From: an uncultured cyanobacterium
Lineage (GTDB): Bacteria; Cyanobacteriota; Cyanobacteriia; PCC-6307; Cyanobiaceae
Length of the DNA: 64,000 bases
Assembly: GCA_903858015.1 (NCBI GenBank)
Contig: CAIOGZ010000077.1
Location: forward strand, 1-64,000
Direction: 5' to 3'
Part shown: positions 1,363-13,652 of the stretch, piece by piece
How the letters are laid out: each line of letters opens with the position of its first letter
Numbering within the stretch: position 1 is the stretch's first letter
The notes under the pieces: generated by a model
Seen by the model: only the letters and a program-made list of their open reading frames with translations
What the model was told of the DNA's origin: nothing
Databases searched by the model: none
Position numbers and translations under genes: made by a program

Positions 1363-2970
1363 ATGTCCAAAGGCTCCCCCATCCGTCTATTCATCTCCTA
1401 TTCCCACAAGGATGAGGCATTGCGCAATAGGCTGGGCGACCACCTGGCCGGCCTGCAGCGCGAAGGGGTAATTGACCTTTGGCACGACCGCAAAATCAGT
1501 GCCGGCCAGGAATGGGTTGGGGCAATTGACGCCAACCTTGAAGGGGCTGACATCATTCTCTGCCTGGTGAGCGCAGGCTTTATGGCGTCGCCGTACTGCA
1601 ATGATAAGGAACTCAGCCGTGCCCTGGAGCGTCATAACGCCGGTGAGGCCCGGGTGATCCCGGTGATTCTGAGGCCGGTGGATTGGGATAACACCGATCT
1701 GGCCAGGCTCCAGGCTCTGCCGGACAATGCCAAGCCGGTGACGAATTGGAGCAACAGGGATGAGGCCTTCCTTTCGATCGCCCGTGGTATCCGGGAGGTG
1801 GCCAAGCAGCTGGCGGAGCGGCCCAAAAGCACCACCGTCCTTGTGGGCGCGGCGCCTGCCGGAGCCCCCTCCGCCGGCGACCAGGCCCCGTCAAGCGGCG
1901 CCGCCATTGGTGCCGCTGCCCACGGCCCGGTTTCGGCGCCCACTCCAATCCCTGCGGCCAGCCTGGAGATTCCGGAGGGTCCTGTGCGGCACGATTCCCC
2001 CTTTTATATCCACCTGGCAGATGGCGCCCGCTGCTGCGTTGAGCTCGATAAACCGGGCGCCCTGATCCGCATTAAGAGCCCCAAGGGGTTCGGCAAATCC
2101 AGCCTCACCGCCCGCCTACTGGCCTATGCCAATGGCCAGGGGTACCGCACAGTTTCTCTCAACCTGGAGGGCACGGATCAGAAGTTCTTCGCTGATCCGG
2201 AGCTGTTTATGCAGTGGTTTTGTGCATCTGTGGGCAAGGAGCTGGGTCTGCGGGTGCGCAAGGAGGACTACTGGGACGACATCTTTGGCGCCAACGACAA
2301 CAGCAGCGATTACTTCGAGACGTACCTGCTCAAGCCGGATGCCACGCCGCTGGTGCTGGCAATCGACAACTTTGATCGCATCTTCGCCCACGCGGCGATC
2401 GAAACCGATTTCTGCGGGCTGCTGCGCAGCTGGCATGAACGGGCCCGCAGCAGTCCCCTTTGGGAGCGTTTCCGGCTGCTGCTCTCCCACTCCCAGGAGT
2501 CGTATGCCACCAAGGACATCAACCAGTCGCCCTTCAATGTGGGCCTGCCGGTGGAGCTGGGGGAGCTGCAGCCGGACCAGGTGCGCCAACTGGTGGGCCT
2601 CCATGGCCTGCCCCTGGGCGAGGTGGAGGTCGCCCAGCTGTTGGAACTGGTGGGAGGCCACCCCTACCTGGTGCGCAAGGCGCTCTACGAGCTGGCCAAC
2701 GGCCTGCCCTTCGCCACCTTCTTGCTGGATGCCCCCACCGAGGCGGGGGTGTTTGGCGACCATCTGCGCGGCCTGCTCAAGGCGGTGGAAGACCAGCCGA
2801 AGCTGGCGGAGGCCCTGCGCCAGGTGGTGAACAGCAGCGGGCCAGTGAAGCTGCGCTCGGAGCAGGCCTTCAAGCTGGAAAGCCTGGGCCTGCTGGTGCC
2901 CGAGGGCAACCTGGAGCGTCCCCGCTGCCGGCTCTACGCCGAGTACATGGTCGACCGTCTGATCGCCTGA
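1363..2970 (+). CDS. TIR domain + AAA_35-like STAND ATPase (gene A)
   Basis: TIR signature IRLFISYSHKDEALRNRLGDHL...SAGFMASPYCNDKELSRALERH. A/P-rich linker, then Walker A SPKGFGKSS, Walker B-like LVLAIDNFDRIF and AAA_35-type C-terminal helices (SEQAFKLESLGLLV...RCRLYAEYMVDRL). Start set at ATG 1363 (MSKGSPIRLF) instead of the ORF-track start 1156. Confidence 0.88.
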   Translation: MSKGSPIRLFISYSHKDEALRNRLGDHLAGLQREGVIDLWHDRKISAGQEWVGAIDANLEGADIILCLVSAGFMASPYCNDKELSRALERHNAGEARVIPVILRPVDWDNTDLARLQALPDNAKPVTNWSNRDEAFLSIARGIREVAKQLAERPKSTTVLVGAAPAGAPSAGDQAPSSGAAIGAAAHGPVSAPTPIPAASLEIPEGPVRHDSPFYIHLADGARCCVELDKPGALIRIKSPKGFGKSSLTARLLAYANGQGYRTVSLNLEGTDQKFFADPELFMQWFCASVGKELGLRVRKEDYWDDIFGANDNSSDYFETYLLKPDATPLVLAIDNFDRIFAHAAIETDFCGLLRSWHERARSSPLWERFRLLLSHSQESYATKDINQSPFNVGLPVELGELQPDQVRQLVGLHGLPLGEVEVAQLLELVGGHPYLVRKALYELANGLPFATFLLDAPTEAGVFGDHLRGLLKAVEDQPKLAEALRQVVNSSGPVKLRSEQAFKLESLGLLVPEGNLERPRCRLYAEYMVDRLIA

Positions 2971-2974
2971 AGCC

Positions 2975-5900
2975 ATGGCCCCTCAGCAGTCCTACAAGGT
3001 TGGCGGCAGCCTTGATGGCGAGAACGCCTTCTATGTGGTTCGCGCCGCCGATCAGGATCTCTATACGCATCTGAAGGACGGCGACACCTGCTTCGTGTTC
3101 AACAGCCGCCAGATGGGCAAATCCAGCCTGCGGGTGCGCACGATGCAGCGCCTGCGGCGGGAGGGGGTGGTGTGCGCCGTGATCGATCCCCAGTCCCGCG
3201 GTACCACCCCCACCGAGGAGCAGTGGTATGCCGGCACGCTCAAGCGGCTGATTGAGGATCTGGACCTGGCGGAGGCGGTGCCTTTTAGCGCTTGGTGGAA
3301 AGAGGGCAGCGTGCAGGCGCTGAGCGCGGTGAACCGCTTTGAAGAGTTCATCGACAAGATCGTGCTGGCGCAGATCACGGCGCCGATCGTGCTCTTTGTG
3401 GAGGAGGTGGACAACCTGCTCAGCCTGAAGTTCGACACCGATGGCTTCTTCGCCATGATCCGCTCGTTGCATGAACGCCGCAGCGAACAGCCGGCCTACA
3501 ATCGGCTGGGTTTCTGCTTCCTTGGGGTGGCCACCCCCTACGACCTGATCCGCAGCAGCGACCGCTCCGCGTTCAACATCGGCCATGCGGTGGAGCTCAG
3601 CGGCCTGGAACGGCGGGAGGCCAAGCCCCTGCTGGCCGGCCTGGCGGGCAAGGTTGACGATCCAGCCGCCGTGCTCGATGCAGTCCTGCAATGGAGTGGT
3701 GGCCAGCCGTTCCTCACCCAGAAGCTGCTGGCGCTGTTGAGCGCCGCTGGCGATCAAGGAGTGGCGGAGGGAGAGCTGCCCGCGGCCGAGCTGCCCGCAG
3801 CCGAGCTGGTGGCAGCCGTAACTCAAGGCCAGATCATCCGTAACTGGGAGGCCCAGGATTCACCGGTGCACCTGCGCACCATCCGCGACCGCCTGCTGCA
3901 AGGGGATGAACACCATCGCGGCCGGCTGCTGGGGATGGTGCAACGGATCCAGGAGCAGGGCGCCATCCCGGCCGACTCGAGCCGCGAGCAGATGCAGCTC
4001 CGCCTCACGGGGCTGGTGGTGCCCAGGGAAGGCCAGCTGCATTTCTACAACCCGATCTACGCGGCGGTGTTCACTCCCGATTGGGTGCGCGCCCAGCTGC
4101 AGGAGCTGCGCCCGACGATCTACTCCCAGGCGATCAACGATTGGGAAAAGGCCCCGCCGGCAGAGCGGGCCAGCCACCTGATCGGCGCAGCCGCTCTGGG
4201 GGAGGCCCTGGAATGGGCGAAGGACAAGAGCCTCAGCCCGGCGGACGAGGAATTCCTGGAGGCCAGCCAGGCGGCGGTGGCAACCGCTACCAGGGCGGCC
4301 GAGGCCATGCGGCTGGCTGAGGAGCGGGCGCGGGTTGCGGAACGGGAAGCCCGCATGCGCCGCAAGGTGATCCTTGCCATGGCTGGCGCTCTTGTCGCTT
4401 TCGGGGGTCTCGGTGCATACGCTTGGCACCAGCTGCGGGTGGCTCAGCTGCGGGAACAATCAGGTCTGGTGATCAATGAAGCAAGAACGAAACCTGTCGA
4501 AGCGCTGATCCGGGCCATTGCTCTTCACTCCCTGGCTCCAGAAACAGAGGTGGGGTCGATCGAACGCTCCGGTGACGATTCCTTGGCCCAGGCACTGTCC
4601 CAAAGCAGCCCCTGGGGTGAGGTCGATCGCTTGCTCGGTCATCAGGGCGGCCTCAGGGCTATCGCCCTCAGCCCGGATGGTCGCCGCATGGTCTCCGCTT
4701 CCATCGACAGGACCCTGCGCCTCTGGGATCTCGCCAGCGGCCAGCCGATCGGGCCGCCGCTGGTGGGTCACACAGGCACGGTGAGGGCTGTGGCCTTCAG
4801 CCCGGATGGCCGTCGCATCGTTTCAGGCTCGTTTGACTCCACGCTCCGGATCTGGGATGGCTTCACGGGCAGCCCCATCAGCGCCCCGATCCGGGGCCAT
4901 GAAGTTCCGGTTCTCTCCGTTGCTTTCAGCCCGGATGGCCGCCACATCGTCTCCGGAGCGATGGATAAGACGGTAAGGCTCTGGGATGGCGCCAGCGGAA
5001 GGTCCCTGGGTCCCCCCTGGCTTGGGCATCTTGGGGTGGTCAGAGCCGTGGCCTTCAGCCCGGATGGCCGCAGGATCCTTTCCGCCTCTTCGGATAACAC
5101 CCTGCGTCTGTGGGATGCCACGAGCGGCAGGCCCGTCGGCAGACCGCTGTCGGGCCACACCGACACCGTCAGCTCTGCGGCCTTCAGCCCGGATGGTCGC
5201 CGGATCGTCTCCGGATCCTTTGACAAAAGCTTGCGGCTCTGGGATGCAGCCACCGGCAGGCCGCTTGGCTCACCCCACTATGGCCATCGGGATTGGGTGC
5301 GATCCGTGGCGTTCAGTCCCAGTGGGAAGCTGATCGTGACTGGTTCAGCCGACGGCACGCTGCTTCTCTGGGATGGGCTGACGGGTAATCGCGTCGGCGA
5401 GCCCCTCAAGGGCCACACGGGATCGGTGGATTCGGTGGCCTTCCTTCGCGATGGTCGCAGCATCGTTTCAGGATCCATTGATCGCAGCGTGAGGCTCTGG
5501 GATGCGACCACGGGACAGCCCAGCGACACCATGCTCAAGGGACCCAGGGGTATGACGGCTGCCGTGGCCTTCAGTCCCGATGGCAGGCGAATCGTCACGG
5601 GTCTTGTGGACAACTCCCTGCAGTTCTGGGATGCCGCCAGCGCTGCGCCCATCGGCAAGCCCCTGAGGGGTCACACGTTCCCAGCCACCAGCGTCGCCTT
5701 CAGCCCCAATGGCCGGCACCTGGTCTCCGGATCCCAGGACAACTCACTGCGCCTTTGGGATGTCAGCACGGGCAAGCAGATCGCCGCCCTGGGGTCATTG
5801 CACAGGGATTCGATTGTCTCAGTCGCCTTCAGCGCCGATGGCAGACGCATAGCGTCTGGCTCCCTGGATTACACCGTGCGCCTCTGGGATGGCCGCTCCG

Positions 5901-6673
5901 GCCAACCGATCGGGAGGCCGTTGCAGGGGCATGGCAGCCATGTGCGGAGCGTGGCCTTCAGCGCCGATGGCCGCCTGGTGGTCTCCGGGGCCACGGACAG
6001 CACCCTGCGGCTCTGGGACGTCGCCACGGGCAGGCCGATTGGCCCCCCTCTGCAGGGCCACGACGGGGACGTGTTGAGCGTGGCCTTCAGCCCAGACGGT
6101 CGGCAGATGGTCTCCGGGTCATCCGACCGCAGCCTGCGGCTGTGGGACGTCGCCACGGGAAAGCCAATCGGCCTACCACTCCACGGTCACCGTACCTCGG
6201 TGAAGGCGGTGGCCTTCAGCCCTGATGGTCGCCGCATCCTCTCCCTATCAAGAGACAGCCAGGTGCTGCTCTGGGATAGCAGCAGCCACAAGCCCATCAC
6301 TACGGCAATGGAGGGGCTTGACGATTCTGTGGAGGCTGCGGCCTTTAGCCCCAATGGCAGCAGGGTTGTTGCCATTTTTTCCGATTCGTCTGCCCACCTT
6401 CTGAATGTGACCCCCATGGGCCACGTCACCCTGGCTTGCCAGCGCCTAGGCCGCCACCAGCTGTTGAGAAATCACAAAGCATCGGGCGTGGGCCCTGAAT
6501 TTGAAGCCATCGCCGCCCGCGCCCGCAAAGTCTGCGCCAATCAAGCGCCTCCATCACCGCCCACCCATGTGCTCCCCCCAGCCCGGTCCAGCTCGGCCCA
6601 GGCCCGCGCCTTTCCTTTGCTCCAGCTCGCCCGCCCGCTCCACTGGCTGCGCCACAGCATGGGCCTCGGCTGA
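2975..6673 (+). CDS. AAA_35-like ATPase + TM + 14 x WD40 repeat protein (gene B)
   Basis: AAA_35-type N-terminus (YKVGGSLDGENAFYVVRAADQDLYTHLKDGDTCFVFNSRQMGKSSLRVRTMQRL), acidic Walker B FVEEVDNLL, TM segment VILAMAGALVAFGGLGAYAW, then 14 WD40 units. Begins 4 nt after the gene A stop. Confidence 0.92.
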   Translation: MAPQQSYKVGGSLDGENAFYVVRAADQDLYTHLKDGDTCFVFNSRQMGKSSLRVRTMQRLRREGVVCAVIDPQSRGTTPTEEQWYAGTLKRLIEDLDLAEAVPFSAWWKEGSVQALSAVNRFEEFIDKIVLAQITAPIVLFVEEVDNLLSLKFDTDGFFAMIRSLHERRSEQPAYNRLGFCFLGVATPYDLIRSSDRSAFNIGHAVELSGLERREAKPLLAGLAGKVDDPAAVLDAVLQWSGGQPFLTQKLLALLSAAGDQGVAEGELPAAELPAAELVAAVTQGQIIRNWEAQDSPVHLRTIRDRLLQGDEHHRGRLLGMVQRIQEQGAIPADSSREQMQLRLTGLVVPREGQLHFYNPIYAAVFTPDWVRAQLQELRPTIYSQAINDWEKAPPAERASHLIGAAALGEALEWAKDKSLSPADEEFLEASQAAVATATRAAEAMRLAEERARVAEREARMRRKVILAMAGALVAFGGLGAYAWHQLRVAQLREQSGLVINEARTKPVEALIRAIALHSLAPETEVGSIERSGDDSLAQALSQSSPWGEVDRLLGHQGGLRAIALSPDGRRMVSASIDRTLRLWDLASGQPIGPPLVGHTGTVRAVAFSPDGRRIVSGSFDSTLRIWDGFTGSPISAPIRGHEVPVLSVAFSPDGRHIVSGAMDKTVRLWDGASGRSLGPPWLGHLGVVRAVAFSPDGRRILSASSDNTLRLWDATSGRPVGRPLSGHTDTVSSAAFSPDGRRIVSGSFDKSLRLWDAATGRPLGSPHYGHRDWVRSVAFSPSGKLIVTGSADGTLLLWDGLTGNRVGEPLKGHTGSVDSVAFLRDGRSIVSGSIDRSVRLWDATTGQPSDTMLKGPRGMTAAVAFSPDGRRIVTGLVDNSLQFWDAASAAPIGKPLRGHTFPATSVAFSPNGRHLVSGSQDNSLRLWDVSTGKQIAALGSLHRDSIVSVAFSADGRRIASGSLDYTVRLWDGRSGQPIGRPLQGHGSHVRSVAFSADGRLVVSGATDSTLRLWDVATGRPIGPPLQGHDGDVLSVAFSPDGRQMVSGSSDRSLRLWDVATGKPIGLPLHGHRTSVKAVAFSPDGRRILSLSRDSQVLLWDSSSHKPITTAMEGLDDSVEAAAFSPNGSRVVAIFSDSSAHLLNVTPMGHVTLACQRLGRHQLLRNHKASGVGPEFEAIAARARKVCANQAPPSPPTHVLPPARSSSAQARAFPLLQLARPLHWLRHSMGLG
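4634..6439 (+). repeat. 14 tandem WD40 units, each 129 nt (43 aa), without indels
   Basis: Unit starts at the GH motif: 4634, 4763, 4892, 5021, 5150, 5279, 5408, 5537, 5666, 5795, 5924, 6053, 6182, 6311. Consensus GHxxxVxSVAFSPDGRRIVSGSxDxTLRLWDxATGxPIGxPL. Confidence 0.93.
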
Positions 6674-6750
6674 TGGATCCGGCCTCCGCCAGCCTTCGCC
6701 ACCAGCTAGGCGAAGGATGAGTTAAACCGAATCCTCGCTGGCGCTGAGCC

Positions 6751-9070
<2,320 letters not shown>

Positions 9071-10915: not shown

Positions 10916-12175
10916 GTGGCGGGCCTGGCCGTGGAATTCGAACGCCTCGGACTTTCCGAGCCCCTGCTCAAGGCGGTGGCGGCCAAGGGCTATCGCAGCC
11001 CCTCGCCGATCCAGTGCACCTGCATTCCGGCGGTGTTAGAGGGCCACGATGTGATGGCAGCGGCCCAAACCGGCACGGGCAAGACCGCCGGTTTCACCCT
11101 GCCGATGCTGGAGCGGTTGCGGCATGGCCCCCATGCCCGGGCCGGCCAGGTGCGTGCCCTGGTGCTCACCCCCACCCGCGAACTCGCCGCCCAGGTGGCA
11201 GAAAGCGTTACGGCCTATGGCCGCTACCTCGACCTGCGCTCCGATGTGATCTTTGGTGGCGTCAGCCCCAACCCCCAGATCAACCGCCTACGCCAGGGCA
11301 CCGATGTGCTGGTCGCAACTCCCGGGCGGCTGATGGATCTCCATCAACAGCGGGCCCTGCGCCTCGACCAGGTGGAGATCCTGGTGCTCGATGAGGCCGA
11401 TCGCATGCTCGACATGGGCTTCATCCGCGACATCCGTCGGATCCTGAGCCTGTTACCGGCCAAACGCCAAAATCTTTTGTTCTCGGCTACTTTTTCTCCC
11501 GAGATTCGGCGCCTGGCCAGCGGCCTCTTGCACCAGCCCGTGCAACTCCAGGCCAGCCCGGAAAATCAAGCGGCTCCCTTGGTGGAGCAGCTGCTCCATC
11601 CCTGTGACATGGCCCGCAAGGCCGACCTGCTCAGCCATCTGATCCGCAGCAATGACTGGCAGCAGGTGCTGGTGTTTTCCCGCACCAAGCATGGGGCGAA
11701 CAAGGTTGCCGAACGGCTGGAAAAAGAAGGACTCTCCGCCGCCGCGATCCACGGTAATAAGAGTCAGGGCGCCCGTACCCGTGCCCTCGCTGGTTTCAAG
11801 AGTGGTGAGGTGCGGGTGCTGGTGGCCACCGATATCGCCGCCCGGGGGATCGATATCCACCAGTTACCCCATGTGGTGAACCTTGACCTGCCCAACGTGG
11901 CCGAGGACTATGTGCATCGCATTGGCCGCACAGGCCGGGCTGGTCAGAATGGCCATGCCATTTCCTTGGTTGCGGCCGAGGAACACGAACTGCTGCGCGC
12001 CATCGAGCGGTTGGTGGGCTCTCCCCTGCCTCGCCAAGCGGTGCCCGGCTTCGAGCCCACCGTGCTGTCTGCCCCACCGCTCGATCTCAGTGGCGGCCGT
12101 GGGCGCCGCCGCGACGGCAGTGCTGTTGGTGGTCTACCCCAGCGGGCTCCTGCCCGTCGCGCCCGCGGCCGCTGA
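10916..12175 (+). CDS. DEAD-box RNA helicase (RhlE-like), GTG start
   Basis: [51 protein letters not shown] motifs. Confidence 0.93.
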
Positions 12176-12336
12176 GCAGGGCCCACCAGCCGCTCAGCAG
12201 GGCCCCCTAAGCGAAGTTGGCTGGTAGACAGTTGGAGCACTGCTGCCGCAAGCCGCCCCATCTCTGCAGAAACGCAGTGAAAGTGACAGTTTCCTGGTTC
12301 AAGCTGGTTTGAAGTGACAAAGTTCTGATTCCCACC

Positions 12337-12561
12337 ATGCCCTACGAACCCGGCTCACCCGAGTGCCGCGTGCTGATCGACTGCAAAGCCCAGATCGAAG
12401 CCATGCTCCTCTCCCTGCAGCGGATTGACAACAGCTCTGAGATTCGCGACCAACTTGTCTCTGTTTATCAACAGCTGGAAGGATTACACGAGCGCCATCG
12501 CCGCCAACCCCAGGATCAGGAGGTGCCTACCTCACTTTTGCAACCCGTAACCGCTGCTTGA
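12337..12561 (+). CDS. Conserved small hypothetical protein (74 aa)
   Basis: Compact ORF MPYEPGSPECRVLIDCKAQIEAMLLSLQRIDNSSEIRDQLVSVYQQLEGLHERH, in a gap between genes, with plausible composition. Confidence 0.65.
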   Translation: MPYEPGSPECRVLIDCKAQIEAMLLSLQRIDNSSEIRDQLVSVYQQLEGLHERHRRQPQDQEVPTSLLQPVTAA

Positions 12562-12632
12562 TGGACGATCAAAAGTCTGGTCGATTAAATTATTGAGATG
12601 ATTGGTTGCGAACTATAGAATTAGCTTGTTGC

Positions 12633-13652
12633 TCAGCTGCCAAGCTGCTCACCCACCTTGAGGTTCAGTTGTTGCAGCAAGGCCGTGCCGCCAGCCGCCC
12701 GTTTACCTTCCAGTTGGCCCTGCCGCAGCAGCAACGGGCAACCGCCGGTTGAGATCACTGCCCCAACCCCCTCCACGACGGCAAGCACGGTGCCGGGAGA
12801 CCCGGTCTGGAGGCCCCCCCAATGGTCCACCAGGCTGCGGGCTTCGGGGCTGAGGTTATCCCGCAAGCGATGCACCAGGGGCTCGGTGGCTAGGAGTTTG
12901 AACCGCTGGCCCTGTCTCTGGGTCAGGGCCTGGGGAAACAGCCCCATCACCCGCCGGTGCACGTCTAGGGCGGCTGCGCTCCAGTCGATCTGGGCATCGT
13001 GCTTGGCCAGCAGACGGGCATAGGTCATCCCTTCGCTGGGCTGCTGCCGCACTCCCAACCGCGCCAACCGGTCGACCGCTGGCCCTTCCCCCACCGCAGC
13101 GATGCGATCGATGGCTTCCACCAGCAGCGAAGCGCTGAGCTGGGCCAGTCTTTCGGCTAGCTGCGCAGCATTGTCAAGCAGCCCCACCCCAAGCCGTTGC
13201 TCGATCAGCACCGGGCCGGTGTCGAGCCCCTCATCCATCGCCATGATCCCCACCCCGGTTTCGGCGTCGCCCTCGAGCAAACACCACTGGATCGGGGCCG
13301 CCCCACGCCAGCGGGGTAGCAACGAACCATGGGCATTCCAACAACCCAGGGGCGGCTGGTTCAGCACCTCAGGTGGCAGGATCTGACCGAAGGCCACCAC
13401 TACCGAGAGATCGGCTCCCAGGGCGGCCAGATTGGCTTGGCTGTCGAGTTCCCGTCGAATCCGCTCCGGGGTGAACACCGGTAGTCCCAGTTCCAGGGCC
13501 CGCGCCTTGATCGGTGCGGCGATCAGGTCGTTGCCCCTGCCGCGGCGACGATCGGGTTGGCTCACCACCCCCACCATTTCATGGCCCGCTTGCAGCAGCG
13601 CCTCCAGGCTTGGCAGGGCGTAGGCCGGCGTACCCCAGAACAGAACCTTCAT
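12633..13652 (-). CDS. fmt: Methionyl-tRNA formyltransferase
   Basis: MKVLFWGTPAYALPSLEALL; NAHGSLLPRWRGAAPIQWCLLEGDAETGVGIMAMDEGLDTGPVL. Confidence 0.95.
   Translation of the reverse strand: MKVLFWGTPAYALPSLEALLQAGHEMVGVVSQPDRRRGRGNDLIAAPIKARALELGLPVFTPERIRRELDSQANLAALGADLSVVVAFGQILPPEVLNQPPLGCWNAHGSLLPRWRGAAPIQWCLLEGDAETGVGIMAMDEGLDTGPVLIEQRLGVGLLDNAAQLAERLAQLSASLLVEAIDRIAAVGEGPAVDRLARLGVRQQPSEGMTYARLLAKHDAQIDWSAAALDVHRRVMGLFPQALTQRQGQRFKLLATEPLVHRLRDNLSPEARSLVDHWGGLQTGSPGTVLAVVEGVGAVISTGGCPLLLRQGQLEGKRAAGGTALLQQLNLKVGEQLGS

Follow-up and report, generated by a model that had tools for sequence, protein, structure and literature searches.

NLR-like defence in bacteria is known mostly from single proteins that hold the effector, the ATPase and the sensor. 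Plants and animals also have paired NLRs (RPS4/RRS1 and NAIP/NLRC4, respectively), in which the sensor and the executor are separate, related ATPases. The closest published idea to the pair described here is the nSTAND2 system, which is encoded by two genes and has been predicted to act as a hetero-multimer with a counter-invader role (Kaur et al. 2021, PMC8195603, section 15). Its two adjacent genes share a STAND NTPase core that stays constant while the attached effector modules vary; both STANDs are of a Dap3/RNA12-like family, one of them is eroded, and the effectors are of the GT4 or HEPN type (PMC8195603). Cyanobacteria also encode caspase-NACHT/WD40(14) proteins, in which a suicide-type enzyme is coupled to about 14 WD40 repeats on a single polypeptide without a paired AAA_35 partner (Jiang et al. 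2010, PMC2853523).

We analyzed a window comprising the first 64 kb of one contig of a 3.84-Mb cyanobacterial genome, in which two forward-strand genes, A and B, are the only AAA_35 genes of that genome. The genome also contained 22 TIR_2 matches, only one of which was coupled to AAA_35. Gene A (1363..2970, 535 aa), the putative output (effector) half, starts at ATG 1363 and stops at 2968-2970; an in-frame ATG is also present at 1288, and the start of a close homologue (locus L017) matches position 1363. The architecture proposed for A in an earlier note on this DNA, a TIR domain, an A/P-rich linker and a STAND-type ATPase, was confirmed. A TIR_2 domain covered residues 10-118 (1390..1716, E = 2e-17) and was followed by the end of the TIR region and the A/P-rich linker (1717..1971), the linker being mostly disordered with pLDDT < 50 at residues 156-195. 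The STAND-type AAA_35 ATPase occupied residues 204-529 (1972..2949, E = 5e-111), and the protein ended 6 aa beyond it. Its Walker A motif, SPKGFGKSS (2077..2103), contained a GK that was invariant among A homologues (97/97), the Walker B motif LAIDN (2353..2373) had Asn in place of the catalytic Glu, and GGHP (2653..2664) corresponded to the GxP motif of the STAND lid. Glu83, which had been placed in the usual NADase position, is encoded by a GAA codon at 1609..1611 and is the predicted catalytic glutamate. It was conserved at >=90% in 36 TIR-bearing A homologues and shared an alignment column with the DEL/YEL glutamate of Cat1 and of one bacterial TIR structure. By conservation and by alignment with known TIR structures, A thus has the catalytic glutamate of TIR NADases, and its TIR domain would act as an NADase.

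Gene B (2975..6673, forward strand, 1232 aa), the putative sensor half, starts at ATG 2975, 4 nt past the stop of A as had been read before, and stops at 6671-6673. Pfam matched AAA_35 at residues 11-256 (3005..3742, E = 1e-22), and the conserved B-type ATPase module extended beyond this match to about residue 377 (position 4105). Walker A NSRQMGKSS was located at 3101..3127, with GK[S/T] invariant in 89/89 B homologues, and Walker B FVEEVD at 3395..3412. A single TM helix with a positively charged N-side was predicted at about residues 465-483 (4367..4423), and the WD40 units followed at a 43-residue pitch (4622..6412). Pfam returned 13 WD40 stretches and the 43-residue register gave 14 units, which presumably form two seven-bladed propellers. 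The AAA_35 domains of A and B were paralogous (23% identity, E = 3e-12). The earlier description of B as a paralogous AAA_35 joined to a TM helix and 14 WD40 units held in each part. Just upstream of gene A, at the contig end, positions 195-367 contained what is left of a WD40 gene resembling B, broken by a frameshift, with DALDQALAKADHLSKTERLLGHTDSVNSV in one frame and SGSMDRTLRLWNA in another; it is possibly an older sensor that has decayed.

AlphaFold models of A and of residues 1-557 of B were of good quality in the domains, with mean pLDDT values of 82 and 84, respectively. The best solved structural relatives of the A model were the plant TIR-NLR RPP1 and CED-4, and the matches of the B model included ORC/Cdc6-type AAA+ proteins, Sso1545, Avs3, Avs4 and Avs5. 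Both models thus resembled the NLR/apoptotic-ATPase fold, with modest TM-scores of 0.3-0.4 by query length. PDB sequence searches with A and B as single proteins returned no match, and a search with an A profile returned TIR relatives and weak RecA P-loop matches only.

Like nSTAND2, A and B are two adjacent STAND genes. However, both belong to AAA_35 and neither is eroded, the GK of Walker A being intact throughout the A and B sets; the outputs are TIR, caspase, trypsin, CHAT, kinase or HTH modules, and the effector end and the sensor end are divided between the two genes. Pfam assigned AAA_35 to A and B, nSTAND3 reached only E = 0.2, and no nSTAND2 match was listed, although Pfam may lack an nSTAND2 model. 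As in other STAND/NLR-like proteins, the P-loop and the GxP lid were intact in both sets, with GK[S/T] of Walker A and GG[HQ]P retained. The logic of effector, STAND ATPase and C-terminal sensor is shared with the single-chain Avs/bNACHT NLRs, and the B model matched Avs3/4/5, but in nearly all A/B homologues the three parts are distributed over two polypeptides, with an ATPase in each, and B of the window has a TM helix. Compared with RPS4/RRS1 and NAIP/NLRC4, A/B is bacterial and uses another ATPase family, sensor repeats are entirely absent from A, and the assembly is putative. The TIR of A matched the ThsB model of PADLOC (E = 3e-55), a likeness to Thoeris; it is, however, fused to AAA_35 and its partner gene is B, and PADLOC detected no ThsA in A or B. 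Within A, PADLOC recognised only the TIR part, and within B only repeat-like parts. The searchable open-access literature yielded no description of the AAA_35 pair, and the Pfam name and accession of AAA_35 were nearly absent from the open-access papers searched.

AAA_35 was present in four of 151 genomes of the window's family. All four carried exactly two such genes, adjacent and on the same strand, one of A-type and one of B-type. The C-termini of B differed among them, and the identities of the relatives to the proteins of the window were 66, 33 and 36% for A and 52, 36 and 34% for B. Using A alone as the query, we retrieved 80 loci with 81 A genes from across cyanobacteria, and the A-type and B-type ATPase models separated the two classes cleanly (e.g., 447 vs 70 bits). 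A same-strand B-type AAA_35 was found downstream of 66 of the 81 A genes in these loci, which were fetched with A only; 40 of the 66 lay within 200 bp of A, and some overlapped it by 1-4 nt. Several A genes without a downstream B were at contig ends. No A-B fusion protein was found in the fetched loci. The ORFs between A and B differed between loci and no constant third gene was present, so that no third component is obligatory. The only recurrent one was a PD-(D/E)xK-like gene of about 208 aa in five loci (L065, about 8129-8755; L030, L066, L077 and L095), for which PADLOC gave a match of E = 1e-7 in L065; we regard it as an optional cassette of A/B loci.

A set of 27 genomes with few AAA_35 genes was chosen and fully rescored; a phylum survey that scored five candidates per genome did not enter the counts. 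Both types were detected in 23 of them and B alone in none, while at least two (G172 and G315) had an A without a clear B, G346 was ambiguous, and G486 was decayed. A single A and a single B were far apart on the chromosome in several genomes (e.g., G164, G239, G292 and G395), indicating that co-occurrence is not merely a matter of linkage. On nine single-contig, multi-copy chromosomes, likewise rescored in full, an A gene lay no more than 5 kb from 26 of the 31 B genes, where random placement gave a mean of 0.2; three of the other five B genes were extra tandem copies in the same cluster. Pairing across genomes had been set beforehand as a test of the earlier note; conserved pairing was found, and the genes are not usually alone (66/81; 26/31). 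The earlier idea survived this test and is supported, with corrections: adjacency is not constant, and the tie to TIR and WD40 is not exclusive, other modules being swapped in.

A tree of ATPase domains (97 from A, 89 from B) resolved the two types as separate subfamilies, divided by one branch with a support of 1.0 and a length of 2.6. The mirror-tree correlation of 71 linked pairs was r = 0.85, compared to a maximum of 0.25 in 2000 shuffles, and partly reflects shared species history. The Walker B Glu was replaced by Asn in 17 of the 97 A proteins, including that of the window, and was present in 89/89 B proteins. In the Asn-bearing subgroup, the better hydrolase of the two may thus be B.

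The A proteins hardly extended past the ATPase (median tail, 2 aa), and the B proteins opened with it (median lead, 8 aa). The remainder of A would be the output, and that of B the sensor or an additional signalling domain. The outputs among the 97 A proteins were TIR, Ser/Thr kinase, CHAT, HTH-like only and cyclase. TIR was present in 55 of them, a figure biased by the TIR-bearing query, and occurred either on its own or combined with HTH, trypsin, caspase, CHAT, kinase or cyclase-like parts. In A proteins of Pseudanabaena, an ATPase about 60% identical to that of the window's A carried a kinase in place of the TIR. Among the ends of the B proteins were WD40, TPR, GAF, histidine kinase, CHAT, a TRADD-like N domain, peptidoglycan-binding repeats and a VgrG3-like domain. 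Complementary truncation (2 aa vs 8 aa) and independent swapping of the A output and the B end fit a division of effector and sensor over two ATPases, as had been proposed.

Some loci departed from the common layout. Judged by eye, A-type AAA_35 proteins with the output at the C-terminus were present in L118 (4874-6508, GGDEF-like) and L054 (6992-8551, class III cyclase-like). The B-type AAA_35 lay at the extreme C-terminus of very long proteins in L038 (8774-14404), L078 (8040-13682) and L121 (7080-12767), an alternative B architecture; the long protein of L038 starts with a kinase domain. In L017 (genome G048), a T6SS VgrG3-like domain took the place of WD40 at the C-terminus of B (6399-7484), and B of L034 had four peptidoglycan-binding repeats at its C-terminal end. 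These two ends suggest envelope sensing.

The charges flanking the TM helix after the ATPase were compared in 41 B homologues. The N-side was more positive in 32 and less positive in two, and by this positive-inside bias the ATPase is predicted to lie in the cytoplasm and the C-terminus outside it. Judged from these sequences, the sensor end of B is probably beyond the membrane in about half of the homologues. The TM helix was absent from B proteins with GAF or histidine-kinase ends and present in one with peptidoglycan-binding repeats. As an exception, it was also present in CHAT-ended B proteins, which sits badly with a periplasmic C-terminus.

We consider it likely, as the most economical reading, that A and B make up one STAND/NLR-like receptor split into a pair, with B as the sensor, probably acting across the membrane, and A as the executor. 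The domains and motifs, the operon, the conservation of A/B across the phylum, the complementary truncation, the module swapping and the plasmid or defence contexts of some relatives support this reading. B would be the sensor, its AAA_35 in the cytoplasm, anchored by one TM helix, and its WD40 double propeller of 14 units most likely facing the periplasm. A, a soluble AAA_35 carrying the TIR with no sensor of its own, would be the executor. A cue at the propeller, whether a phage protein, a breached envelope or a change in the host, would lead B to bind and activate the AAA_35 of A, by analogy with the action of NAIP on NLRC4 or of plant sensors on helper NLRs. Clustering of the TIRs by the A-type domains would follow, NAD+ would be consumed or converted, and the cell would be stopped. 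Direct contact of A and B, the direction of signalling, the role of WD40 as the sensor, its side of the membrane and an anti-phage role are putative features of the pair. Against a split receptor, the C-termini of some B proteins are enzymes (CHAT, histidine kinase) and not plain sensors, and at least two genomes have A without B.

The main alternative, which we judge rather unlikely, is a general split signalling chassis with which cyanobacteria regulate stress responses or development; the TIR version would be a side branch, and phage defence not the main role. Many A outputs without TIR are HTH, kinase or cyclase domains, which suit regulation as well as suicide, and A proteins with a small HTH-like output or a kinase or cyclase output only are common, including those of the unlinked, single chromosomal A/B of compact genomes. 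Given unlinked partners in some genomes and regulatory outputs in many A proteins, an immune role need not apply to every pair. The downstream neighbours of the pair in the window are housekeeping genes (GAPDH and others), and the window copy is in no obvious defence island. A main role in regulation is opposed by the TIR in 55 of the 97 sampled A proteins, although the query itself had TIR, by caspase, trypsin or CHAT in other A proteins, by the sporadic distribution in the window's family, and by the plasmid copies beside restriction genes. On a Nostoc plasmid, a TIR-A/TPR-B pair had a type II restriction gene on one side and a type III restriction subunit gene on the other, and on another Nostoc plasmid, pTCL26-01_A (L122), two A/B pairs were in tandem beside a NACHT gene and IS elements. 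A-type matches were found in 36 plasmid records, almost all from cyanobacterial genera among the matches listed, and none was found in phage genomes. Near the L017 pair were a patatin phospholipase gene (737-1984) and a DUF4062 gene (11904-12920). DUF4062 is a TIR-like NADase family named Swarozyc (2026 preprint, PMC13174449). With regard to the defence-island setting suggested for checking, some relatives had a defence-gene context, beside restriction and NACHT genes.

It is improbable that B is a keeper (antitoxin or guardee) that holds the TIR of A inactive until its loss or modification frees A. Obligate pairing, the tight operon order and the rarity of A without B would also fit a toxin and its inhibitor; B is, however, large, its ATPase is intact and its sensor-like C-terminus is swapped, and non-toxic outputs such as HTH and kinase would need no neutraliser. 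That A and B are independent ATPases, side by side since an old tandem duplication, agrees with their paralogy at 23% identity and is very improbable given that they co-occur at a distance, that none of the 27 genomes had B without A, that their evolutionary distances co-vary and that their truncations are complementary.

The chassis is modular, and TIR-A with WD40-B is one of its combinations. More tentatively than for the split receptor itself, and with slightly less than even confidence, we extend that reading to a phylum-wide 'paired NLR' chassis, in which A-type ATPases with many outputs would always be hetero-assembled with B-type ATPases bearing many, often transmembrane, sensors. TIR-A/WD40-B would be its immune version, connecting an extracytoplasmic cue to a cytoplasmic NADase. 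The togetherness of A and B across the phylum suggests an unstudied bacterial 'paired receptor' design. If this is true, a conserved split between sensor ATPase and executor ATPase, with modules exchanged on both sides, would give bacteria a counterpart of paired NLRs. The evolution and assembly rules of paired NLRs would then become testable within one phylum. If B reports from outside the cytoplasm, it would also be a transmembrane NLR-like receptor.
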